From positions 62,001 through 126,000 of the forward strand of contig UCKU01000022.1 of the NCBI GenBank assembly GCA_900473185.1: DNA of 64,000 bases. The letters run 5' to 3'. Shown piece by piece: positions 707-43,034 of the stretch. Every line of letters begins with the position of its first letter. Position 1 is the stretch's first letter. The translations under genes were made by a program, and so were the position numbers. The notes under the pieces were generated by a model that was not told the origin of the DNA, searched no databases, and saw nothing but the letters and a program-made list of their open reading frames with translations. This DNA comes from Hyphomicrobiales bacterium. GTDB taxonomy: Bacteria > Pseudomonadota > Alphaproteobacteria > Rhizobiales > Rhizobiaceae.

Positions 707-1870
707 TCAGGCGCCGAGGCGCTGTTCGGCAAGGCGCACCCAGTAGGAAATGCCATGGGCGATTGCGTCGTCGTTGAAATCGTAGGCGGGGTTATGCAGG
801 CCGGCGGTGTCGCCGTTGCCGATGAAGATGAACGCGCCGGGGCGGGCGTTCAGCATGTAGGAGAAATCCTCGCCGCCCATCATCGGATCGACCTCAGGAT
901 TAACGTTGGCTTCGCCGGCAATGTCGGTGGCGATGGCGACGGCATGTTCCGTTTCATCCGCATGGTTGAAGGTGACGGGGTAGTTGCGGTGGAAGTTGAT
1001 GTCGGCTGCCGCACCATGGGCAGCGCAGATGCCTTCCACGACTTCGCGCAGGCGTGCTTCGGCCTGGGCGCGCACCTCGTCATCCAGCGTACGGATCGTG
1101 CCGGCGAAGGTTGCGTCATTGGGGATGACGTTATGGGCGAAGCCGGCATTGAACTTGGTGACGGAGACGACGACCGAACGTAGCGGATTGACGCTGCGCG
1201 AGGCGATCAGCTGCAGGTTCGAGACGATCTGCGCGCCGATTGCGATCGGATCGATCGTGCGGTGCGGCTGCGCCGCATGGCCGCCGCGGCCCTTGATGGT
1301 GATGGTGAATTCGTCGGTCGCCGCCATGATCGGCCCCTTGCGCGTGGCGAACTGGCCGACGGGCAGGCCCGGCAGATTATGCATGCCGTAGACTTCTTCG
1401 ATGCCAAAGCGTTCCATCATGCCGTCTTTGACCATCAGGTTGCCGCCGCCGCCGCCTTCTTCGGCGGGCTGAAAGATCACAGCGACATTGCCATTGAAGT
1501 TGCGGGTCTCTGCGAGATATTTCGCTGCACCCAGCAGCATGGCGGTATGGCCGTCATGACCGCAGGCGTGCATCTTGCCAGGTGTTTTCGATGCCCAGGG
1601 TTTGCCGGTGATTTCGGTGAGCGGCAGGGCATCCATATCGGCGCGCAGGCCGACCGTACGGCTGCCTTCGCCCTTGCCCTTGATGAGGCCGACGACGCCG
1701 GTGCGACCGATGCCGGTGACGACTTCGTCGACGCCGAATTCCTTAAGCTTTTCAGCAACGAAGGCAGCCGTATTTTCGACTGCGAAGAGAAGTTCCGGCC
1801 GCGCATGGATGTGACGGCGCCACTCTGCGACTTCGTCCTGAAGTTCGGCGGCTCTATTCAGAATCGGCAT
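707..1870 (-). CDS. M20 family metallo-amidohydrolase (hippurate/N-acyl amino acid hydrolase type)
   Basis: This 387-residue protein is a cytosolic peptidase M20D enzyme that hydrolyses N-acyl amino acids or related amides. The metal-site motifs appear in order: RADMDALP near residue 76, HACGHDGH near 101, QPAEEGGGGG near 134, GMHNLPG near 162 and GGEDFSYM near 332. The dimerisation (lid) domain lies between about 180 and 295 and contains GRGGHAAQPH. The length matches HipO/AmhX/carboxypeptidase Ss1 relatives, and the exact substrate cannot be read from sequence. The gene is monocistronic, bounded downstream by the hairpin at 654-682 and upstream by the divergent carboxypeptidase gene. Confidence 0.9.
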   Translation of the reverse strand: MPILNRAAELQDEVAEWRRHIHARPELLFAVENTAAFVAEKLKEFGVDEVVTGIGRTGVVGLIKGKGEGSRTVGLRADMDALPLTEITGKPWASKTPGKMHACGHDGHTAMLLGAAKYLAETRNFNGNVAVIFQPAEEGGGGGNLMVKDGMMERFGIEEVYGMHNLPGLPVGQFATRKGPIMAATDEFTITIKGRGGHAAQPHRTIDPIAIGAQIVSNLQLIASRSVNPLRSVVVSVTKFNAGFAHNVIPNDATFAGTIRTLDDEVRAQAEARLREVVEGICAAHGAAADINFHRNYPVTFNHADETEHAVAIATDIAGEANVNPEVDPMMGGEDFSYMLNARPGAFIFIGNGDTAGLHNPAYDFNDDAIAHGISYWVRLAEQRLGA

Positions 1871-2026
1871 TCTTGGCTTCCTGTGAATGAAATGCGTGGG
1901 GCCTGTCTGAAAGCATCACAAGGGCGTGATGCCTTGGAAATAACTTAGTCAATGACCTTTGCCATGTCATAGCCATATAGGGTAAATAGGGGAAGGTTTC
2001 GAGATAATTCCCTGAAGGACGAGCAC

Positions 2027-3160
2027 TTGTCGACGCGCCACGATCGTTTGTTCGCCGCTTTGCGGCCCTTTTCTTTTATAGCGACAGCAACAGCGGTTCT
2101 TGTCTCGTCCGTTACAATTGCTGAAGCCAATCCGCATATTCTCGTCGACGTACAGACCGGCCGGGTGCTGGAGCATGAAGAAGCCTTCCGCAAGTGGTAT
2201 CCGGCTTCACTCACCAAACTCATGACCGTTTATACGGTATTCGATGCGATCCGCTCCGGCCAGATCAACCTCGACACACCCGTTGTCATGAGCAAGCGCG
2301 CCGCGTCCGCGCCGCCCGCCAAGATGGGCTTCAAGCCGGGCCAGAAATTCACGCTCGACAGCGCGTTGAAGATCCTGATGGTGAAGTCGGCCAATGACAT
2401 CGCCGTCGCCGTTGCGGAAGCGGTCGGCGACACCCAGGAAGCTTTCGTCGTGCGCATGAATTCCGAGGCGGCGAAGCTTGGCATGTCGGATTCGCATTTC
2501 GTCAATCCGAACGGCCTGCCGGGCAACGGCCAGTATACGACGGCCCGCGACCTTGCGATCCTGACGGTGGCGCTGCGCCGCGACTTCCCGCAATATGCCG
2601 GTTATTTCTCGCTGGAAGGCTTCACGAACGGCAAGCAGAACGTTCCGAACATCAACATGCTGATCGGCCGCTTTGCCGGCGCCGATGGCATGAAGACCGG
2701 CTTTATCTGCGCTTCGGGCTTCAACCAGATCGGTTCTGCGACGCGCAACGGCCGCACGCTGGTTTCCGTCGTGCTCGGCACCGACAGCCTGGCGGCCCGC
2801 GCCGACGCCACCGCCAACCTGCTGCAGAAGGGCTTCACCACGCAGTTTGCGGCAAATGATACACTGGGTTCGCTGAGGCCCTACGGTCCGGGGCAGGACC
2901 AGGTGAACGACATCACGGCCGATATCTGCAGCGCCAAGGGCGCGAAGGTGCGCAGCGAAACGCGCGACGAGGTCGGCCGTATGAAGGTACAGTCGCCCTA
3001 TATTCACGAGATGGATCACGAGCCGCAATTCGTGTTCGCCGGCCTCATTCCGGGGCAGGATCCGCAGCCTGTTGCGCAGAACGACAAGACCGCCAAGGGT
3101 GACGCGGTCGAGGCGCTCGCCAATGTGCCGGTTCCGCTTCCACGGCCGAAATCCTTCTGA
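2027..3160 (+). CDS. D-alanyl-D-alanine carboxypeptidase (penicillin-binding protein, S11 family)
   Basis: This 377-residue protein is exported and trims the terminal D-Ala from peptidoglycan stem peptides. The N-terminus (about 1-35) is a signal peptide ending near AEA. The catalytic motifs are SLTK with the nucleophile Ser61, SAN near residue 120, and KTG near 223. The C-terminal stretch past about 330 is Pro/Ala-rich and has no clear membrane anchor. The start is a TTG at 2027 behind gaaggacgag, since no ATG is available before the signal sequence. The CobW gene follows after 8 bp, so the two are probably cotranscribed, although their functions are not obviously linked. Confidence 0.92.
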   Translation: MSTRHDRLFAALRPFSFIATATAVLVSSVTIAEANPHILVDVQTGRVLEHEEAFRKWYPASLTKLMTVYTVFDAIRSGQINLDTPVVMSKRAASAPPAKMGFKPGQKFTLDSALKILMVKSANDIAVAVAEAVGDTQEAFVVRMNSEAAKLGMSDSHFVNPNGLPGNGQYTTARDLAILTVALRRDFPQYAGYFSLEGFTNGKQNVPNINMLIGRFAGADGMKTGFICASGFNQIGSATRNGRTLVSVVLGTDSLAARADATANLLQKGFTTQFAANDTLGSLRPYGPGQDQVNDITADICSAKGAKVRSETRDEVGRMKVQSPYIHEMDHEPQFVFAGLIPGQDPQPVAQNDKTAKGDAVEALANVPVPLPRPKSF

Positions 3161-3168
3161 GGAAAACC

Positions 3169-4320
3169 ATGAGCACGTTTAGCGACAAGATCCCGGTCAC
3201 AATCCTGACCGGCTTCCTCGGCGCCGGAAAATCGACGCTTCTGAACCGTATTCTCAAAGATCCTGCCATGAAGGATGCGGCCGTCATCATCAACGAATTC
3301 GGCGATGTCGGCATCGACCATCTGCTGGTCGAAAGCTCCGGCGATTCCATCATCGAGCTCTCCGATGGCTGCCTCTGCTGCACCGTGCGCGGGGAACTGG
3401 TCGATACGCTGGCAAACCTCATGGATGCCGTGCAGACGGGCCGTGTGAAGCCGGTCAAGCGCGTGGTCATCGAAACCACCGGCCTTGCCGATCCGGCTCC
3501 CGTCATGCAGGCGATCATGGGTAACCCCATCATTGCGCAGAATTTCGAGCTCGATGGTGTGGTCACCGTCGTCGATGCCGTGAACGGCCTGCAGACCCTC
3601 GATAATCACGAAGAGGCGCGCAAGCAAGCGGCCGTCGCCGATCGGCTGATCGTTTCGAAACAGAGCATAGAAGGCGATACGGATGCGCTGATGGCACGTC
3701 TGCATGGCCTCAATCCGCGCGCCGCCATCATGGATGCCGACAGCGATGAGGCAGGCTCAGCGCGTATTTTCGTCAACGGGCTTTATGATCCCGGCACAAA
3801 AATCGCCGATGTCCGCCGCTGGCTGCATGATGAGGATGAGCATGAAGGGCATCATCATCACGACCATGGCCATGATCACGGTCATCACCACCATCATCAC
3901 CATGGCCACGAGCATCAGGACCCGCACGACGTCAATCGTCACGATGCGTCGATCCGCTCCTTCTCGATCATCGAGGAGAAGGCAATCGATCCGATGGCGC
4001 TCGAAATGTTCATCGATCTCCTGCGCTCGGCGCATGGGGAAAAGCTTCTGCGCATGAAGGCGATCATCGCCACATCAGATCGGCCGGAGAGGCCGCTGGT
4101 GCTGCATGGCGTCCAGAGCATCTTCCACCCGCCGGTGCGGCTTGCCGCCTGGCCGGACCCTGAGGATCGGCGCACGCGCATGGTGCTGATCACCAAGGAT
4201 CTGCCTGAGGCTTTCGTGAAAGATCTCTTCGATGCCTTCCTCGGCAAGCCGCGCATTGATACACCGGATCGCGCCGCGCTCAGCGACAATCCGCTCGCTA
4301 TTCCGGGCATGCGGATCTAA
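3169..4320 (+). CDS. CobW/COG0523 family GTPase with histidine-rich metal-binding loop
   Basis: This 383-residue G3E GTPase of the CobW/ZNG1/YjiA group is a cytosolic metallochaperone-type protein. The P-loop GFLGAGKS is at residues 15-22 and the metal-binding CLCC motif is at 68-71. The Walker B-like ETTGLADP follows near 105, and the C-terminal CobW domain begins near 265. A linker at about 219-252 is extremely His-rich, with runs of four and seven His among Asp and Gly. Family members serve in zinc, cobalt or nickel allocation, and the His-rich linker favours Zn or Ni/Co handling. I see no Zur-box-like palindrome upstream. Involvement in B12 synthesis is not implied by the family name alone. 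Confidence 0.88.
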   Translation: MSTFSDKIPVTILTGFLGAGKSTLLNRILKDPAMKDAAVIINEFGDVGIDHLLVESSGDSIIELSDGCLCCTVRGELVDTLANLMDAVQTGRVKPVKRVVIETTGLADPAPVMQAIMGNPIIAQNFELDGVVTVVDAVNGLQTLDNHEEARKQAAVADRLIVSKQSIEGDTDALMARLHGLNPRAAIMDADSDEAGSARIFVNGLYDPGTKIADVRRWLHDEDEHEGHHHHDHGHDHGHHHHHHHGHEHQDPHDVNRHDASIRSFSIIEEKAIDPMALEMFIDLLRSAHGEKLLRMKAIIATSDRPERPLVLHGVQSIFHPPVRLAAWPDPEDRRTRMVLITKDLPEAFVKDLFDAFLGKPRIDTPDRAALSDNPLAIPGMRI

Positions 4321-4332
4321 TCAGAAAAGGCT

Positions 4333-4557
4333 CTATCCCTTGCGGATCAGGAAACGGTGGCCGCGCTCGGTCTTCTCCGTGCTGAGGAGCTCGTGGCCGT
4401 CTTCATTGCAGAAATGCGGGATATCGATGACGGCAAGCGGATCGCTGGTATCGACGAGGATCATTGCACCGCTCGGCATAGCCGTCAGCTTCTTTCGCGT
4501 CTTGATGACGGGAAGCGGGCATTTCAGCCCGCGCAGATCGTAGAGAACGGCGTCCAA
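4333..4557 (-). CDS. TusA-like sulfurtransferase (SirA/YedF/YeeD family)
   Basis: This 74-residue protein has the TusA fold signature, with the conserved CPLPV motif and presumed persulfide-carrying Cys13 near the N-terminus (LRGLKCPLPV). Such proteins relay sulfur to tRNA thiolation, molybdenum cofactor or other acceptors in the cytosol. It starts 5 nt after the L,D-transpeptidase stop on the same strand, so it is the second gene of that unit. It converges with the CobW gene, leaving 12 bp between stops. Whether it is the tRNA 2-thiouridine TusA or a paralogue cannot be decided, since no TusBCDE genes are present. Confidence 0.87.
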   Translation of the reverse strand: MDAVLYDLRGLKCPLPVIKTRKKLTAMPSGAMILVDTSDPLAVIDIPHFCNEDGHELLSTEKTERGHRFLIRKG

Positions 4558-4562
4558 GCCGA

Positions 4563-5789
4563 TCAGTTCCTGGCCCAGAACTTCCAGAACGGCTTCTTGG
4601 TGGCGTCGGCGGTTTCCTGCGGCGCGGGCTCGGGCGCGGCATAGGCCAGCGGATTCTGCATCGGCACCGGAATATTGGCCGGCAGCGCTGCAGCGACGGT
4701 CGTGGCTTGAGCCTGCGTCGTCGGCGTCGCAGTCGCTACGGTCTTGGCAGCAACGCTCTTTGCGGCCTGATTGGCCATCATGTCTTCGAGTTCGGCAACC
4801 TTGACCATGCGGCCGGCTTCCAGCGACGTGCCCGTTGGAGCATAGGCGAGTTCACGACCCTTGCGCTGCTTGGCGACCACAGCCTTGCGTTCTGCTTCCG
4901 TCGGGTCGTACCAGGCAAGCCCGTCATATTTCTTCAGCGCCGTCTGATAATCGGCATCATAGGTCTTGCCGTAGGAGGCGAGCGCTGCCGTCAGCGCCGG
5001 CGGCGTAGACATGGCCGGGCAGGCGCCAGCCGGATTGAAGCTGCCACCATTCGTGGCCTGCTGGTTGAAGACGTATTTCTTCTCACAGACATTCACTTCC
5101 GGCGGGCGTTTGGTGACTTCGAAATTGTCGTAGCCGACCTTCAGCATCTTCCAGAAATCGTAGTTCTGATCGAGACGATGCTTGACCATGTTCTCGGCGG
5201 TCATGCGGAAGGGAAAGGCCTGAAGCTGGACGCTTTCCTGGCCACCCTTGAAGGCGTCACGGGCAAAGGCGTAGATTTCCAGAACCTGCTGATCGGTCAT
5301 CGAATAGCAGCCGGACGATGAGCAGGCACCGTGGATCATCAGGTCACTGCCGGTGCGACCGTTGACAGCATCATAGCGGTTCGGAAAACCGGTGTTGATC
5401 GCTAGATAATATTTGGAATTGGGGTTCAGGTTGGCGCGGCTCAGGTTGTAGAAGCCTTCCGGCGCCTGCCGGTCGCCGGTCTTGACCTTCGGGCCGAGCT
5501 TGCCGGACCAGGCGCAGATCTTGTAGCCTGCGATCTTCTCAAACCGGTTGTCCGTCTTCGCCTTCCAGACTTCCAGCGCACCTTCTTCCTTGAAGATGCG
5601 GATCATGATCGGCGAGTTGCGGTCCATGTTCTTGGCCGACATGTCGGCAAGGATGTGGGCGGGAAGCGGCTGCTCCACCTTGTTCTTGACGCTCGAAAGG
5701 TCGATGCCTTGAGCCGATTCCAATGCGTCATTGCAGCCGGTCAGAGCCAGCGCCATGAGCGAAACATAGGCAAAATGACGTATGCGCAT
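4563..5789 (-). CDS. L,D-transpeptidase family lipoprotein (YkuD domain, murein cross-linking)
   Basis: This 408-residue protein starts with a lipoprotein signal (LALTGCND, lipid-attachment Cys19), which places it in the periplasm anchored to a membrane. The YkuD/ErfK catalytic region spans roughly residues 60-215 and contains MIHGACSSSGCYSM with the conserved His and catalytic Cys. Family members form 3-3 cross-links or attach proteins to peptidoglycan, and such enzymes are abundant in Rhizobiales, which grow from the pole. The C-terminal third is Ala/Pro/Thr-rich and low in complexity, probably a flexible spacer. It leads a two-gene unit with the TusA-like gene. Confidence 0.88.
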   Translation of the reverse strand: MRIRHFAYVSLMALALTGCNDALESAQGIDLSSVKNKVEQPLPAHILADMSAKNMDRNSPIMIRIFKEEGALEVWKAKTDNRFEKIAGYKICAWSGKLGPKVKTGDRQAPEGFYNLSRANLNPNSKYYLAINTGFPNRYDAVNGRTGSDLMIHGACSSSGCYSMTDQQVLEIYAFARDAFKGGQESVQLQAFPFRMTAENMVKHRLDQNYDFWKMLKVGYDNFEVTKRPPEVNVCEKKYVFNQQATNGGSFNPAGACPAMSTPPALTAALASYGKTYDADYQTALKKYDGLAWYDPTEAERKAVVAKQRKGRELAYAPTGTSLEAGRMVKVAELEDMMANQAAKSVAAKTVATATPTTQAQATTVAAALPANIPVPMQNPLAYAAPEPAPQETADATKKPFWKFWARN

Positions 5790-5917
5790 TCAATCAGCCC
5801 ATCAATAATGCGACCCAACCCGCTTACGGAAACCGGGCGTAGCACGGAATCATAGGCGGCTTATACTTGATAAATCCTTACCAGCCTATGACTTGCGCCG
5901 ACGTGTCCTGCAAGCGC

Positions 5918-5935
5918 AATGTTACAGATAACATT
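5918..5935. promoter_or_regulatory. Perfect 7-bp palindrome, possible operator
   Basis: The arms AATGTTA and TAACATT are separated by CAGA in the 193-bp gap between accA and the L,D-transpeptidase gene. No T-run follows, so it looks more like a protein-binding site than a terminator. A second small hairpin (ggccaa/ttggcc, 5941-5955) lies beside it. It could control the L,D-transpeptidase operon or be chance. Confidence 0.25.
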
Positions 5936-5982
5936 ATTGTGGCCAAGATTTGGCCCCAATCGGCTGTGCCGGCCTGTGGAAC

Positions 5983-6936
5983 TTACAGATTGCGGCCCAT
6001 GGCGAGGAACTTCTGGCGGCGGTCGTTGCGCAGTTGTTCGCCGGAGCGGGAAGCCATTTCGGCAAGCGCGTTGGAGATCATATCGCCGGTGGCGGCGATG
6101 ACGCTGTCGGGATCGCGGTGGGCGCCGCCGAGCGGTTCGGGGATGATGCCGTCGATGACGCCGAGTGCCTTCAGGTCCTCCGCCGTGATCTTCATGTTGG
6201 TCGCAGCTTCCTTGGCGCGGGTGGAATCGCGCCAGAGGATCGAGGCTGCACCTTCCGGCGAGATGACGCTGTAGATCGAATGTTCGAGCATGTAGACGCG
6301 GTTGCCGGTGGCAATCGCGATCGCGCCGCCCGAGCCGCCTTCGCCGATGACGATCGAGATCAGCGGCACCTTCACGCCGAGGCACATCTCCGTCGAACGG
6401 GCGATGGCTTCGGCCTGACCGCGCTCTTCGGCGCCGACACCCGGATAGGCGCCTGCGGTATCGACGAGGGTGATGACCGGAAGCTGGAAACGGTCGGCCA
6501 TTTCGAGGATGCGGATCGCTTTGCGGTAACCTTCAGGACGGGCGCTGCCGAAATTGTGCTTCAGGCGGCTCTTGGTGTCGTTGCCCTTTTCCTGGCCGAT
6601 GACGGCGACCGGCTGGCCGCGGAAGCGGGCGAGACCTGCCTGGATGGCGGCATCCTCGGAAAACTTGCGGTCGCCGGCAAGCGGCGTGAATTCCTGGAAG
6701 AGCGTCTTGGCATAATCGACGAAATGCGGACGCTGCGGATGGCGCGCGACCTGCGTCTTCTGCCAGGCGTTGAGCTTCGAATAGATCTCGACGATTGCCT
6801 CGCGGACGCGGACTTCGAGCCTGCCGACTTCGTCGGAGGTGTCGATGCTTTCGTCTTCCGTTGCCAGCTTCTTAAGCTCGATGATCTTACCTTCGAGGTC
6901 GGAGATCGGCTTTTCGAAGTCGAGATAGTTGTGCAT
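5983..6936 (-). CDS. accA: Acetyl-CoA carboxylase carboxyltransferase subunit alpha
   Basis: This 317-residue protein is the alpha subunit of the carboxyltransferase, which with AccD moves CO2 from biotin-BCCP to acetyl-CoA to make malonyl-CoA for fatty acid synthesis. The N-terminal coiled segment ([15 protein letters not shown]) and the crotonase-like core are full length for the family. Diagnostic stretches include [19 protein letters not shown] and [12 protein letters not shown], which lines the active site. It lies 62 bp downstream of xerD on the same strand and ends in a gap without a strong terminator. The neighbouring accD is not in the window, as is usual. Confidence 0.97.
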
Positions 6937-6998
6937 GAGGTGCGTTTCCGTTCCTTGTGCGCGGGGCAGTTTCCTGGTTCCGCCCCTTGTCGCCGGTC

Positions 6999-7952
6999 CT
7001 ATTCGTGCTTTTTCGCCTGTTTTGCAAGGGGGTGGTGCGTATGGACGAGCTGCTGGAGGCGTTCTTCCAGAACATGCGTATAGATTTGTGTCGTCGAAAT
7101 GTCTGAATGGCCGAGGAGTTCCTGCACCACGCGCAGGTCCGCGCCATTGGCGAGAAGATGGCTGGCAAAGGCGTGCCGCATGACGTGCGGCGAAATCATC
7201 GACGGTGTGAGGCCGGCGCGGATTGCCAGATTCTTGAGATCGCGGGCGAAAACCTGGCGCGGCAAGTATCCCTCTTTCGAGGCGGCCGGGAAGAGCCAGG
7301 GGCTCTCCTGGGGCTGTTTTGATGCGGCGTTTTCAGACGCCAGCATGCGGCCGTAGGATTTCAGAGCGGCAATGGCCGATTGGGAAAGCGGTACCAGCCG
7401 CTCCTTGTTGCCCTTGCCGCGGATCATTAGGAAACGGCCTTCCTGATCGAGAACTCGGGCTGGAAGCGAGACGAGTTCGCTGACACGCATGCCGGTGGCA
7501 TAGAGCAGTTCCAGCAGCGCCAGCATGCGCATGCGATGAAGCTGGCCGGGGGCAGGGTCAGCGGCCTCGGTTTCTGCCTGAGTAAGCAGCTTGGTCACTT
7601 CCTCGACGCCCATCGTCTTCGGCAGGGAGCGGCCCTTCTTCGGCGCATCGAGAATGCCGGTCGGATCGTCGGTGCGCAGGCCCTCGGCATAGAGGAATTT
7701 GTAGAACTGCCGCATGGCGGCAAGGCGGCGGGCTTGCGAGGAGGGCTTGAAACCCTGCGCGGATAGCGAGCCGAGATAGGCGCCGAGATCGCCCGATGCC
7801 GCTTCGGTCAGGCGAATGCTGCGGCCGTGGAGGAAGGAGCGCAGGTCGTCCAGATCGCGTTCGTAGGACTGCAGCGTATTGACTGCAGCACCCCGCTCGG
7901 CACTCATCATTTCCAGGAATGATTCCACGTGGACGCGGCCGAGATCCTTCAT
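6999..7952 (-). CDS. xerD: Site-specific tyrosine recombinase XerD
   Basis: This 317-residue protein is a chromosome-dimer resolvase acting at dif with XerC. The N-terminal SAM-like core-binding domain covers about 1-105, including [19 protein letters not shown]. The catalytic domain carries the first Arg in TGMRVSELV, the HxxR box in [14 protein letters not shown], the second His in ELLGHSDIS and the nucleophile Tyr in TTQIYTHV. It is translated 4 nt after a 58-residue membrane protein gene, with a shared promoter probable at 8161-8188. No integrative element surrounds it and its length and context are those of the housekeeping gene, so I do not read it as a mobile integrase. Confidence 0.93.
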
Positions 7953-37059: not shown

Positions 37060-38463
37060 TTAATTGCGAGCGCGCCAATAGGCGATCTGCTTCCTGACTT
37101 CCGAAGGTGCTGTGCCGCCGAAGCTTTTGCGGCTGGCGACCGAAGCTTCGACCGTCAGCACGTCATAGACCTTGTCGGTGATGGCGAGATTGATTGCCTG
37201 CAGATCGGCGAGCGGAAGCTCCGAGAGATCGCAGCCCTTGCTTTCGGCAAGTGCGACGGCGCGGCCGGTGACGTGGTGGGCGTCGCGGAAGGGAAGGCCT
37301 GCCTCACGCACTAGCCAGTCGGCGAGATCCGTCGCGGTCGAATAACCGGATCCGGCAGCCGCTTTCATGCGTGCCGTATTGATGGTCATGTCGCGCACCA
37401 TGCCGGTCATGGCGGCAATCGCGAGTTCCAGGCTTTCGGCAGCGTCGAAGACCTGTTCCTTGTCTTCCTGCATGTCCTTGGAATAGGCGAGCGGCAGGCC
37501 CTTCATGATCGTCAGCAGTGCGATCAGCGAGCCGTTGATACGGCCGGTCTTGGCGCGCACCAGTTCAGCCGCATCGGGGTTCTTCTTCTGCGGCATGATG
37601 GAGGAACCGGTGGAGAAGGCGTCGGAGAGGCGCACGAAGCCGAATTGCGGCGTCGACCAGATGACGATCTCTTCAGCGAGGCGCGACAGATGCACGGAGC
37701 AGATCGCCGCAATCGCCAGGAATTCGATGGCGAAGTCGCGATCGGAAACGGTGTCGATCGAGTTGCGGGTCGGTTCGCGGAAACCAAGTGCCTTTGCCGT
37801 CATGTGACGGTCAATCGGATAGCCGGTGCCGGCAAGCGCCGCTGCACCGATCGGGCTTTCGTCCAGATGTTCGATCGCATGGCGAACGCGGGAACGATCG
37901 CGGCCGAACATTTCCACATAGGCCATGCAGTGATGGCCGAAGGTGACCGGCTGGGCGGTCTGCAGATGCGTGAAGCCGGGCATGACGCTGTCTGCATGTT
38001 CCTCGGCACGGTCGAGGAAGGCTGCAATCAGGTTCGTCAGCATGGCCTCGGTCTTCTGCAGCTCTTCCTTCACCCAGAGGCGGAAGTCGAGCGCTACCTG
38101 GTCATTGCGCGAGCGGGCAGTGTGAAGGCGACCGGCGGCGGGGCCGATCAGGGTCGCAAGCCTGGCCTCGACATTCATGTGAATGTCTTCGAGTTGACGA
38201 GAGAACTCGAAATTGCCGCTTTCGATTTCTGACAGGATCGTGTTTAGCCCGTGAACGATCTTGTCCTTATCGTCTGATGAAATGATGCCTTGATGAGCGA
38301 GCATCGTGGCGTGGGCGATCGATCCGCGGATATCCTGGGCAAACAGCTTCTTGTCGAAACCGATCGAGGCATTTATCTCCTCCATGATCGCATCGGGGCC
38401 GGAGGCGAAACGTCCGCCCCACATCTGGTTGGAGGATTTGGTGTCCGTGTTGTCCTCGGCCAT
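37060..38463 (-). CDS. argH: Argininosuccinate lyase
   Basis: This 467-residue enzyme splits argininosuccinate into arginine and fumarate, the last arginine step. The N-terminus [15 protein letters not shown] is diagnostic. The catalytic regions [31 protein letters not shown] and the signature [15 protein letters not shown] are intact. ATG 38463 is the start; the longer frame from 38538 lacks family similarity. It is divergent from tlpA, with only 26 bp between the two start codons, so the promoters must overlap each other or the coding regions. Confidence 0.97.
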
Positions 38464-38489
38464 GGAAGATGCCCGTCCTGGAGAATGAA

Positions 38490-39152
38490 ATGACGACGAA
38501 AAAACCCTTCGGCCTGCCGTCCGTGAAACTGATCGCAATCGCTGCCGTTGCTGGCATCGTTGCCGGTGCGGCAGCGGTATACGTGAAGGAGACGGGCATT
38601 GGCAATGGCGTCAGTGGTACGGCCTCGGCCGAATGCCCGCTGACGAAGGAGCGCGCCGTCAACCTGACGCCGCTCATGAAGGGGCAGGTCGCCGCGATGG
38701 TTGCTGCCAATCAGCCGAGGAAGCTCGAAACCGTCGCCTTCAACGGCCCTGACGGCAAGCCGATGACGCTCGATCATTTCGCTGGCAAGACGGTGCTTCT
38801 CAATCTCTGGGCCACTTGGTGTGTGCCCTGCCGCGAGGAGATGCCGGCGCTGAATGCGCTGGAGAAGGAGATGGGCAGCGACAAGTTCCAGGTCGTGCCC
38901 GTCAATATCGACACGGGTGACGATGAGAAGCCGAAGGCGTTTCTCAGCGAAATCGGTGTGGATGCTTTGCAGCTCTACCGTGACAATACGATCGGTGTTT
39001 TCAACAGCCTGAAGAAGGAAGGCCTGGCCTTCGGTCTTCCGGTGACGCTGCTGATCGATGACAAGGGTTGCCTGATCTCAGCCATGAATGGTCCGGCCGC
39101 CTGGGACAGCGAAGACGCCAAGGCGTTGATCAAGGGTGCTGTCCGGTCGTAA
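38490..39152 (+). CDS. tlpA: Membrane-anchored thiol:disulfide interchange protein TlpA
   Basis: This 220-residue protein starts at ATG 38490 after GGAG. A helix at about 9-30 anchors it in the inner membrane, and the thioredoxin domain faces the periplasm with the active site [13 protein letters not shown]. In rhizobia TlpA reduces copper-handling proteins and the CuA site during cytochrome oxidase assembly. An extra Cys ([12 protein letters not shown]) precedes the domain. The gene is divergent from argH, a stable arrangement in alphaproteobacteria. Confidence 0.93.
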
Positions 39153-39161
39153 GACTGCCGG

Positions 39162-39254
39162 TCAGGAGTCACCGGATCCGCGGATGAGGAAGACACCCGC
39201 AAGTCCGATGAGGACGCAGCACTGCAGTAGAAACATCGGCAATTCGCTCGACAT
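39162..39254 (-). CDS. 30-residue single-pass membrane protein
   Basis: The minus-strand frame from ATG 39254 to TGA 39162 encodes 30 residues, mostly a hydrophobic helix (MFLLQCCVLIGLAGVFLI) with a short RGSGDS tail. The start is preceded by an excellent ribosome-binding site (GGGAGGAAATACC). It is the last gene after etfB-etfA-hbd on the same strand, 78 bp past the hbd stop, and its stop is 9 bp from the convergent tlpA stop. The frame is too short for routine gene calling. The pair of adjacent Cys in the helix is notable. No family can be named. Confidence 0.65.
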   Translation of the reverse strand: MSSELPMFLLQCCVLIGLAGVFLIRGSGDS

Positions 39255-39332
39255 GGTATTTCCTCCCGTTCACGGCAAGGAAAGCACTTCGCGGGCGTTT
39301 GTTCCATTCGCCCGTTCAGGCGATGGCCCGGC

Positions 39333-40214
39333 TTAGCGGGTCGGAACAGGTGTTTCGCCACGATAGTCGTAGAAGCCGCGGCCGGATTTGCGGCCGAGCC
39401 AGCCGGCTTCAACATATTTCACTAGTAGCGGGCAAGGGCGGTATTTGCTGTCGGCGAGGCCGTCATGCAACACCTGCATGATCGACAGGCAAGTATCGAG
39501 GCCGATGAAATCGGCAAGCTGCAGCGGGCCCATCGGATGGTTGGCGCCGAGCTTCATAGCGGTATCGATGGCATCGACCGTACCGACACCTTCGTACAGC
39601 GTGTAGATCGCTTCGTTGATCATCGGCAGCAGGATGCGGTTGACGATGAAGGCCGGGAAATCCTCGGCGACCGTGACGGTCTTTTCCAGCGATGCGACGA
39701 ATTCCCTGGCGGCAGAGAAGGTTGCTTCCTCAGTCGCGATGCCGCGCACCAGCTCCACGAGCTTCATGACCGGAACCGGGTTCATGAAGTGGATGCCCAT
39801 GAAGCGCTCGGGGCGGTCTGTCGCGGCCGCAAGGCGTGTGATCGACAGCGAGGAGGTGTTGGTGGCAAGGATCGCTTCCGGCTTCAGTACCGGACAGACC
39901 TGCGCATAAATCTTGCGCTTGACGCTTTCATCCTCGGTCGCCGCCTCGATCACAAGATCGGAGCGGGCGAGATCGTTGACATCGGCTGAGCCGGTAATGC
40001 ACGCAAGCGCTGCACTGCGCTCTTCATCGGTCATCTTGCCGTTCGTCACCTGACGCGCAAAATTGCCGTTGATGGTGGCAAGGCCGGACTCGATACGATC
40101 CTGCGACAGATCGTAGATGTGAACCTTGTATCCTGCGGCGGCCGAAACATGTGCGATGCCGCAGCCCATCTGGCCCGCACCGATGATACCAATATTCTTC
40201 AACACCGCGCTCAT
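39333..40214 (-). CDS. hbd: 3-hydroxybutyryl-CoA dehydrogenase
   Basis: This 293-residue NAD-dependent dehydrogenase interconverts 3-hydroxybutyryl-CoA and acetoacetyl-CoA, serving PHB or acyl-CoA turnover. The N-terminus NIGIIGAGQMGCGIAHVSAAAGYKV is the NAD-binding fold, the catalytic region HFMNPVPVMKLVELV contains the His-Asn pair, and the C-terminal helical domain has RILLPMINEAIY. The start is taken at ATG 40214. It follows etfA by 147 bp on the same strand, so a common transcript is likely but not certain. Confidence 0.93.
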   Translation of the reverse strand: MSAVLKNIGIIGAGQMGCGIAHVSAAAGYKVHIYDLSQDRIESGLATINGNFARQVTNGKMTDEERSAALACITGSADVNDLARSDLVIEAATEDESVKRKIYAQVCPVLKPEAILATNTSSLSITRLAAATDRPERFMGIHFMNPVPVMKLVELVRGIATEEATFSAAREFVASLEKTVTVAEDFPAFIVNRILLPMINEAIYTLYEGVGTVDAIDTAMKLGANHPMGPLQLADFIGLDTCLSIMQVLHDGLADSKYRPCPLLVKYVEAGWLGRKSGRGFYDYRGETPVPTR

Positions 40215-40361
40215 CTCCAACCCCCGCCCGGCATACACCCCCGCGCTGCCGGTATTTTTATATGAAATTGCCGGACGAAAGATCGCCCGGCAAAAGTAGT
40301 AGACCGATAGAAGACAATTTTCCAGTCATTCGCAAGTGCGAAAAGAAGGCAATCTGCCCGA

Positions 40362-41291
40362 TCAGAGGGCTTTTTCGAGCTCCGGCAGGACGTCGAAGAG
40401 ATCGGCGACAAGTCCATAGTCGGCAATCTGAAAGATCGGAGCTTCCTCGTCCTTGTTGATCGCAACGATAACCTTCGAGTCCTTCATGCCGGCGAGATGC
40501 TGGATGGCGCCAGAGATGCCGCAGGCAATATAGAGCTGCGGGGCGACGACCTTGCCGGTCTGGCCGACCTGCCAGTCGTTCGGGGCGTAGCCGGCATCGA
40601 CGGCGGCACGGGAAGCACCGACGGCTGCACCGAGCTTGTCGGCGACCGGCAGGATGACTTCCTTGAACTTTTCGGCGGAGCCGAGCGCGCGACCGCCGGA
40701 AATGATGATCTTGGCGGAGGTCAGTTCCGGTCGCTCGGAGGCCGACAGCGCGTCGGACACGAAATTCGAAAGACCCGGATCAGAAACGGCCGGAATCACG
40801 TCGACGGCAGCCGAACCGCCCTCGGAAGCCGATGCGAAAGAGGCGGTGCGCACGGTGATGACCTTCTTGGCGTCGGTCGCCTGCACCGTCTGGATCGCAT
40901 TGCCGGCATAGATCGGGCGCTTGAAGGTGTCGGGCGAAACCACTTCGATGATTTCGGAGACCTGGGCGGCGTCGAGGAGTGCTGCGACACGCGGCATGAC
41001 GTTCTTGCCGGTGGAGGTGGCGGCGGTGACGATCGTGTCGTAGCTGCCGGCCAGTGAAACGATCAGGTCGGCGAGCGGTTCGGCAAGGTTGTTGGCGAGC
41101 TCGTCGCTTTCGGCGAGCAGCACCTTAGAGACACCGGAGAGCTTGGCAGCTGCGTCGGCGGCGGCTTTTGCACCCTTGCCGGCGACGAGAACGTGGATGT
41201 CACCACCGATCTGAGACGCAGCCGTCAGGGCCTTGGCAGTCTGGTCGGAAAGGCTCGCGTTGTCGTGGTCAGCCAGAAGAAGAATGGCCAT
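40362..41291 (-). CDS. etfA: Electron transfer flavoprotein subunit alpha
   Basis: This 309-residue FAD-binding subunit receives electrons from acyl-CoA dehydrogenases and passes them to ETF-quinone oxidoreductase. The C-terminal FAD-binding domain carries [37 protein letters not shown] and [17 protein letters not shown]. It follows etfB by 24 bp on the minus strand in the usual B-A order. Length and motifs are those of the housekeeping ETF rather than the FixB paralogue. Confidence 0.95.
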
Positions 41292-41315
41292 TATCGTGTT
41301 CTCCCTTTCCAGATC

Positions 41316-42065
41316 TCAGAGTACGCCGGCTTCGTTCTTGAGCTTGTCGACAAGCTCGGCGACCGACTTCACCTTCACGCCTGCCTTGCGGCCCGACGGT
41401 TCTTCCGTTTTCAGCACCTTGAGGCGCGGCGCGGTGGAGACGCCGAAATCAGCCGGGCTCTTCTTGTCGAGCGGCTTCTTCTTCGCCTTCATGATGTTTG
41501 GCAGCGTTGCGTAGCGCGGCTCGTTCAAGCGCAGGTCGGTCGTCACGACGGCCGGAAGCTTGACCTTGATCGTCTGCAGGCCACCGTCGATCTCACGGGT
41601 GACAGTGGCGCTATCGCCGGCGATCTCGACCTTGGAGGCGAAGGTCGCCTGGGCGGCGCCGAGAAGGGCTGCAAGCATCTGGCCGGTCTGGTTGCTATCA
41701 TCGTCGATCGCCTGCTTGCCGACGATGATCAGGCCTGGCTTTTCGGCGTCGGCAACACCCTTGAGGATCTTTGCGACGGCGAGCGGCTCGACGGCGTCAT
41801 CGGTCTCGACGAGGATGGCGCGGTCGGCACCCATGGCGAGCGCGGTGCGCAAAGTTTCTTCGGCCTTGGCCGGGCCGATCGAGACGACGACCACTTCCTC
41901 GGCCTTGCCGGCTTCCTTCAGGCGAAGGGCCTCCTCAACCGAAATCTCGTCGAACGGGTTCATCGACATCTTGACGTTGGCAAGGTCGACGCCCGATCCA
42001 TCCGGCTTGACGCGGATCTTCACGTTGTAATCGACAACGCGCTTGACTGGGACGAGAATTTTCAT
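41316..42065 (-). CDS. etfB: Electron transfer flavoprotein subunit beta
   Basis: This 249-residue AMP-binding subunit pairs with EtfA. The N-terminal [22 protein letters not shown] and the conserved [22 protein letters not shown], with the family signature near [16 protein letters not shown], identify it. It is the first gene of etfB-etfA-hbd on the minus strand. Upstream, at 42231-42246, stands a palindrome resembling the binding site of LiuR-type regulators of acyl-CoA catabolism, about 166 bp before the start. Confidence 0.95.
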
Positions 42066-42230
42066 GGGGTCCTTCCTTCGAACAGAGATGGGCCTTCAAC
42101 AGAGACTTCTGGGAAAATGCGCGCTTGGACGCTGCTCCGATTGTCGAATGGCGACATGGATACGCGTTTTTCCTCCAAATACAACGCTTCCGTAACGCAG
42201 CCAGTCGATTTGGATGGCAATATATTAACG

Positions 42231-42246
42231 TTTACGTTCACGTCAA
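42231..42246. promoter_or_regulatory. LiuR-like palindromic operator upstream of etfBA
   Basis: TTTACGTTCACGTCAA has arms TTTACGT and ACGTCAA matching at six of seven positions. LiuR, a MerR-family repressor of branched-chain amino acid and acyl-CoA catabolism genes in proteobacteria, is described as binding TTnACGTnnACGTnAA-type sites. A wider near-palindrome (ATATTAACG at 42222-42230 with CGTCAATAT at 42241-42249) encloses it and reaches the stop codon of the rhomboid gene. Confidence 0.45.
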
Positions 42247-42248
42247 TA

Positions 42249-43034
42249 TTAAAGCTTGTCCCGTCCCCAGGGCAGGCGCGGCGGCACGGGCATGCCGGAG
42301 GCGGTGACACGGATGGGGACCGGCCGATCGCGAACGGCACGTGGTGTGACGATCTGCCGGTCGAAGAGCGGCACGCCCGGCCGGCGCAGGATCAGAATGA
42401 GCAGGGCGCCAGCGATGATGCCGCCGACATGCGCGCCCCACGAGACGTTACCGTCAGGATCGACCAACAGCATGAAAAACTGCTGACCAACCCAGAGCAG
42501 GAGTGGGATGAAGGCCGGCAGCGGCAATGGTACGCGGAAAAAGACCAGCACCCAGACCCGCACGCGCGGATGCAGCATCAGATAGGCCGCCACCACGCCG
42601 GAAATTGCGCCCGATGCACCGACGAGAGGCGCTTCCGATGTCGTCGACAGCAGACCGTGGCAAAGGGCACCGGCGGCAGCGCAGGCGAGGTAGAAGATGA
42701 GGAAACGCAGATGTCCCATTGCATCCTCGACATTGTCGCCGAAGACCCAGAGGAAGATCATGTTGCCGGCAAGATGCCAGAAGCCTGTGTGGATGAAGGA
42801 ATAGGTGATGTAGGTGGCAGCTTCCGGCACGATCTCCAGTCCTGGCGCCAGCATCGCATGGCCGAAGATGATAGCCGGGATATAGCCGAGGCCGATGGTT
42901 GCCGCCTGCGCGACTTGATCGCTTTCGACTGCCGTGAAGATCCAGGCGGCGATGTTCGCCGCCATCAGCCCGAGTGTGACCCACTGAACCCTAATGTGTT
43001 TCAGCGTGTTGGCATCGTGCAGCGGTATGAACAT
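42249..43034 (-). CDS. Rhomboid family intramembrane serine protease
   Basis: This 261-residue inner-membrane protease starts at ATG 43034 (MFIPLHDANTLKHIRVQ). It has about six helices. The catalytic Ser lies in PLVGASGAISG, the catalytic His in VSWGAHVGGIIAG and the conserved HLAGNMIFLWVFGDNVED loop marks the first part of the active site. The C-terminal 45 residues are Arg/Pro-rich and probably cytosolic. Substrates are unknown. It is last in a minus-strand run after the SDR, HIG1 and PduO genes. Confidence 0.92.
   Translation of the reverse strand: MFIPLHDANTLKHIRVQWVTLGLMAANIAAWIFTAVESDQVAQAATIGLGYIPAIIFGHAMLAPGLEIVPEAATYITYSFIHTGFWHLAGNMIFLWVFGDNVEDAMGHLRFLIFYLACAAAGALCHGLLSTTSEAPLVGASGAISGVVAAYLMLHPRVRVWVLVFFRVPLPLPAFIPLLLWVGQQFFMLLVDPDGNVSWGAHVGGIIAGALLILILRRPGVPLFDRQIVTPRAVRDRPVPIRVTASGMPVPPRLPWGRDKL

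Follow-up and report, generated by a model that had tools for sequence, protein, structure and literature searches.

Small subunits of oxidases and transporters, such as CydX, CydH, KdpF, AcrZ and CcoM, have about 30–50 residues, consist of one helix and pack against a large membrane protein. Type I toxin peptides are likewise short and hydrophobic, and are encoded by isolated genes at varying sites. In Sinorhizobium meliloti 2011, the sections of Hadjeras et al. (2023, PMC10117765) that concern SEP6 describe a protein of less than 30 residues with one predicted helix that was new to the annotation. They report support by Ribo-seq and Western blot, recovery chiefly from the P100 fraction, which contains membranes and ribosomes, and conservation in Hyphomicrobiales. 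Here we describe a gene of comparable size in a stretch of 64,000 nucleotides from a member of the Rhizobiaceae; the whole stretch is called the window.

Locus and reading frame

The locus comprises the following features:

39162–39254, minus strand: small membrane-protein gene, 30 codons, predicted single helix (open reading frame, coding selection, family profile, predicted helix)
39255–39268, minus strand: Shine-Dalgarno region CGGGAGGAAATACC, directly 5' of the ATG
39269–39317, minus strand: stretch conserved in an alignment of 41 upstream regions (GGCGAATGGAAC ... TGCTTTCC), probably the gene's own promoter
39333–40238, minus strand: hbd, 3-hydroxybutyryl-CoA dehydrogenase, a neighbour not judged to be a functional partner
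38469–39152, plus strand: tlpA, thiol:disulfide interchange protein, convergent neighbour

The frame runs from 39254 to 39162, starts with ATG, stops with TGA and encodes MSSELPMFLLQCCVLIGLAGVFLIRGSGDS. The preliminary description had placed it behind etfB-etfA-hbd, with a near-perfect ribosome-binding site and a tidy end 9 bp from the convergent tlpA stop, and all three statements held. CGGGAGGAAATACC directly precedes the ATG, 78 bp separate it from the hbd stop, and 9 bp (39153–39161) lie between the stop of the small gene and that of tlpA at 39152. The gene order etfB-etfA-hbd, small frame and convergent tlpA was read from the ORFs; hbd and TlpA matched the NCBIfam profiles NF005715 and NF047696. 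The annotation of Rhizobium sp. NLR16a has the same locus order, with no gene listed for the small frame.

Evidence for a protein-coding gene

The 30-codon frame is a real gene, selected as a protein. Twenty distinct homologous sequences from the same place, fetched by hbd and picked for carrying the small gene, had 9/6/25 variable sites on codon positions 1/2/3 and a dN/dS of about 0.10. Pairwise comparison of 40 distinct DNA sequences of the clade gave 6646 synonymous against 2181 non-synonymous codon differences (75 % synonymous). For a random subset of 20 sequences the synonymous fraction was 0.73, whereas shuffling the columns 200 times gave 0.24 on average (sd 0.06) and never more than 0.43. 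As expected, synonymous differences also prevailed, though less strongly (5582/3868), in the antisense frame whose third positions mirror those of the coding frame; no synonymous excess was present in the remaining four frames in the same 40-sequence test. Of 124 distinct homologous ORFs, 118 had an SD-like core at most 22 nt from the start; among the loci fetched from other sites, two had a GTG start (L112, L153) and a few had no good Shine-Dalgarno sequence. The synonymous-substitution tests and the conserved upstream stretch described below place the gene beyond chance. The earlier claim of an unrecognised small membrane-protein gene is well supported as regards the gene, its membrane part being a prediction.

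Distribution of the family

Two profiles were used, A2 from the clade of the window (12 rows) and the wider A4 (30 rows). Each matched 103 of the 148 genomes of the genus, A4 finding nothing in the other 45. A2, built from the hbd-site clade only, independently picked up the relatives at other sites. The window protein, itself a row of A4, belongs to the family by a whole-length profile match with the P6 and Q11 core; its genome scored 68.2 bits (E 5.5e-18) against A4. At least 76 bits were reached by 55 genomes of the genus, and the best-scoring 30, all checked, had the gene directly behind hbd with tlpA near. A further 48 genomes contained a lower-scoring relative (23–65 bits with A2); 47 of them were fetched and none grouped with the hbd site. 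There is normally one match per genome, the weak second matches in two genomes (G001, G373; E near 0.01) lying inside long frames.

In a sample of 297 Rhizobiaceae genomes A4 matched 19, five from the genus, twelve clear cases from other genera and two doubtful ones (E 0.004–0.005, inside long frames). Among 347 genomes of the order there were six matches, and no clear family member outside Rhizobiaceae was found by A4 in this set; the sole outside match (E 0.008) lay inside a 529-residue frame. Carriers include Rhizobium, Pararhizobium, Sinorhizobium/Ensifer (S. meliloti, S. medicae, S. fredii and others), Neorhizobium, Shinella and Mycoplana, the last two also belonging to Rhizobiaceae. A plasmid collection yielded eight records with a match, none of which lists a feature at the match position. 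In three of the six examined hardly any gene is annotated. The other three, from S. meliloti Ak57, R. ruizarguesonis TP23 and Rhizobium sp. NLR16a, are informative: they are rich in genes but have none at the match, as far as their incomplete PLSDB gene tables go.

Searches of sequence libraries gave no Pfam match for the protein family, no match in phage records and nothing significant in NCBIfam (four weak lines, best E 0.021) or PHROGs (three weak lines, best E 0.029 for phrog_15718, 4/30 members); these weak lines were taken as chance for hydrophobic peptides. Five PDB sequences were listed at E up to 10 (E 0.35–2), none significant and designed membrane channels among them, and were taken as compositional likeness. 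No Rfam family reached its gathering score in 38000–42500. The string WPMFILQ was absent from the open-access papers searched, supplements lying outside that search, and the small gene is not mentioned in the accessible parts of PMC2881028 (R. etli ncRNAs), PMC3892343 (R. etli EcfG) and PMC5498481 (Clr). The locus tag smc04267, considered as a neighbour of the small gene, was rejected, as the literature passages available assign it to LpsS.

Protein sequence and predicted structure

The family proteins have 25–31 residues, a single predicted helix and the core [WLT]PMF[IL][LM]Q[CS]...GLxG...IR. A helix from residue 4 to 28 was predicted for the protein with a mean pLDDT of 84, and the best 19-residue Kyte-Doolittle mean, starting at residue 6, was 2.36; both agree with the single hydrophobic helix of the preliminary description. 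In A4 (30 members) P6 and Q11 are invariant, and M7, G17, L18, I24 and R25 are conserved in at least 90 %. A larger table of 68 distinct proteins was gathered by a pattern that demands M1 (ATG), P6 and Q11, so these columns are uninformative there and the invariance of P6 and Q11 rests on A4. Position 5 is Trp in 44 of the 68 proteins, and Leu in the window protein; position 12 is Cys in 49, Ser in 15 and Ala in 4, and 18 proteins contain no Cys at all. The adjacent Cys residues noted earlier are typical of the clade of the window (13 of 16 distinct proteins) but occur in none of the 52 other proteins. With the second Cys confined to this clade, a redox Cys pair, or a link to TlpA through such a pair, is no feature of the family.

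Genomic neighbourhoods and site history

The 133 sites were reduced to 98 distinct loci, which fall into about 29 neighbourhoods (purC, fixP, lpxXL and others) when loci with two neighbour ORFs in common within 3.5 kb are grouped together. The count is approximate because one group, of 17 loci, was assembled by chaining sites that differ, and the hbd site, with 10 loci, is sampled too thinly. For the grouping of loci from other sites, the chance hits L160 and L161 were dropped from 60 fetched loci. L158, from Rhizobium sp. Leaf453 and the same place as L242, was kept; it has an in-frame TAG after 10 residues, as codon 11 at the otherwise invariant Gln11, and its remaining frame is recognisable, as in a decaying copy. 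The largest group has 23 loci, with purC and a GGDEF/EAL protein in its representative L109. There the small gene is divergent from the GGDEF/EAL c-di-GMP-type protein (L109, 2507–4840), of which homologues occur in 22 of the 60 fetched loci. In the group of 17 loci, 16 from Sinorhizobium/Ensifer, fixP is directly upstream in nine and a lipid A lauroyl acyltransferase in three, the fixP family being confirmed by profile for L237 only. In this locus, from S. fredii USDA 205 (1398–7760), the small gene is situated between fixNOQP, encoding the cbb3 oxidase, and fixG, with gaps of 130 bp to fixP and about 1.1 kb to fixG.

The hbd site is found in one clade of the genus only. Within this clade the small gene lies 78–207 bp from hbd; in 9 of 30 checked loci the gap has grown from about 80 to 112–207 bp. 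Eleven loci of the genus have no small gene behind hbd; six of these genomes carry it elsewhere (L026–L031) and five are without it. In the same eleven loci tlpA follows hbd at 16–160 bp in six and gave a partial match in one, while the fetched flanks of the other four showed no tlpA; with this mixed result, the empty site is clean only in some. An intergenic repeat (about GAATCTGAAAGATCGCGAC, on either strand), which is reminiscent of the rhizobial RIME elements, lies behind hbd in L019, L020 and L021 and directly before the small gene in L225.

When 63 etfA-hbd sequences were placed in a tree, loci of the same site type grouped into clades; parsimony needs 10 changes, compared with at least 28 in 200 label shuffles, and absences of the gene are nested at two places inside the hbd-site clade. 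The tree represents one locus with site labels set by hand, two outgroups labelled 'none' unchecked and some weak nodes (0.47 at one base). As the site types follow host phylogeny, the gene is mostly inherited vertically, its site having changed near the clade bases rather than being freely traded.

Upstream region

About 50 bp upstream of the gene are conserved in the hbd clade (GGCGAATGGAMC ... TGCTTTCC; alignment of 41 sequences), and this stretch stays with the small gene where the distance to hbd has grown. Five of the 29 neighbourhoods have a CCTAYRT box, a pattern chosen after the sequences had been inspected, 20–40 nt upstream of the ATG; shuffling gave 0.1 on average and 2 at most. 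An upstream stretch that travels with the gene, together with this box, argues for an own promoter; thus the small gene probably has its own short upstream control region. The promoter scan gave no sigma-70 match.

The strict EcfG motif is absent upstream of the small gene: this general stress motif of R. etli is given as GGAAC-N16-CGTT in the part of PMC3892343 that deals with it, and the window reads GGAAC-N16-CTTT. The 41 upstream regions contain GGAAC in 13, GGACC in 21 and neither in 7. GGAAC-N15..18-[CG]GTT occurred in 1 of 29 neighbourhoods. Eight of the 29 neighbourhoods contain the form GGAAC-N18/19-TT, as quoted in an available passage of PMC6011840; among the representatives it occurs in 4 of 29, compared with a shuffle mean of 0.4 (maximum 3). 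This counts as no more than a lead, because the relaxed EcfG pattern was devised with the window already in view and the strict form does not match.

Proposed function and alternatives

According to these computations the gene is selected as a protein, normally single-copy, widespread in the genus and tied to no one neighbour. We consider it fairly probable that it encodes an autonomous inner-membrane peptide that binds, in trans, a membrane partner encoded elsewhere. From the sequence we infer an own promoter, membrane insertion, orientation, action in trans and partner binding. A stand-alone gene, probably with its own control region, would give rise to a 30-residue peptide of the inner membrane, crossing it once with residues about 6–24; by the positive-inside rule, the N-terminus would be outside and Arg/Lys25 at the inner face. 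The peptide may pack against its partner as a regulatory or accessory subunit, with contact through the conserved Pro6, Met7, Gln11, Cys/Ser12 and Gly17-x-x-Gly20. The free genomic position speaks against a fixed operon partner. In the 45 of the 148 genus genomes in which the profile has no match, the putative partner would work without the peptide or be lost with it. More tentatively, a Rhizobiaceae-specific peptide might tune a core membrane complex common to free-living and symbiotic rhizobia, encoded as one autonomous cassette that moved to new sites near the bases of major clades and was not tied to the operon of its partner.

The sequence is equally compatible with a homo-oligomer in place of partner binding.

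A small accessory subunit of a terminal oxidase (cbb3 or bd), of a size like CydX or CcoM, has a small chance of being correct. The gene follows fixP in 9 of 17 loci of the Sinorhizobium/Ensifer group, and ccoN is commoner in carriers (73/103) than in non-carriers (16/45), a comparison uncorrected for phylogeny. Manual comparison of the ccoN and bd tables with the carrier list showed that 30 of the 103 carriers are without an over-cut-off ccoN (one of them, G036, has ccoN fragments) and five are without a PF01654 match (bd subunit I). An obligatory co-occurrence with either gene was thus not found in the 103 carriers, and a dedicated cbb3-oxidase subunit is unlikely because of the 30 carriers without over-cut-off ccoN. 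No small oxidase or transporter subunit was among the five PDB sequences listed, although at 30 residues such a search tests similarity to solved CydX- or CydH-type subunits only weakly.

A hydrophobic type I toxin peptide silenced by an antisense RNA is quite improbable. Size, one hydrophobic helix, isolated position and changing sites fit such a peptide; the gene is normally in single copy per genome and keeps specific polar and proline residues, and the Rfam search of 38000–42500 detected no family at gathering score. Conservation of polar and helix-packing residues is better explained by a defined contact, as proposed for the partner-binding peptide, than by a non-specific toxin.

The preliminary description had suggested that the small protein serves acyl-CoA oxidation or the ETF-quinone step as a membrane partner. 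Co-transcription with etfB-etfA-hbd is suggested by the 30 best-scoring loci of the genus, in all of which the gene comes next after hbd on the same strand and tlpA is close by; the 20 dN/dS loci are also behind hbd, though fetched by hbd and chosen for the gene. Conservation behind hbd is thus confirmed within the clade; outside it the gene is lost or elsewhere. The gene lies near purC, fixP, lpxXL and others in other genomes, six of the eleven hbd loci without it come from genomes with the gene elsewhere, and the gap to hbd is not constant within the clade (78–207 bp). No linkage to etfBA-hbd holds across the family in the 98 loci and the 63-sequence tree. Since relatives sit beside quite different genes, the place behind fatty-acid genes says little about function, and an ETF partner is very unlikely. 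Assigning a function by neighbourhood was tried and abandoned: hbd, fixP, lpxXL, purC and the GGDEF/EAL protein were each seen, and none holds family-wide.

A non-coding small RNA, to which the nucleotide conservation upstream would point, or a chance frame can practically be dismissed in view of the synonymous excess in the coding frame, the dN/dS of about 0.10 and relatives at 46–93 % protein identity.

Comparison with known systems

Short single-helix proteins missed by annotation are a known kind; this family is itself new to the libraries searched, and annotation tends to miss it. It presents a clear case of misleading guilt by neighbourhood, as the label of fatty-acid, oxidase or lipid A gene varies by strain. 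The family alignment can be used to inspect existing ribosome-profiling data of S. meliloti (GSE206492), a species in which strain 4H41 has a 28-residue member (L232). The gene for the 28-residue S. meliloti protein is flanked by that of the lipid A lauroyl acyltransferase on one side and by convergent VOC/SRPBCC genes on the other. Compared by description, from the sections on SEP6, the family resembles this protein in size, single predicted helix and novelty to annotation; SEP6 is reported as conserved in Hyphomicrobiales, whereas the small family was found in Rhizobiaceae only. SEP6 may be the family member of S. meliloti, but its reported conservation counts against this identity. CydX, CydH, KdpF, AcrZ and CcoM are alike in size and single helix, but no such partner is regularly encoded alongside the small gene. 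Type I toxin peptides share shortness, hydrophobicity and varying sites, whereas the small gene is single-copy with specific conserved residues.
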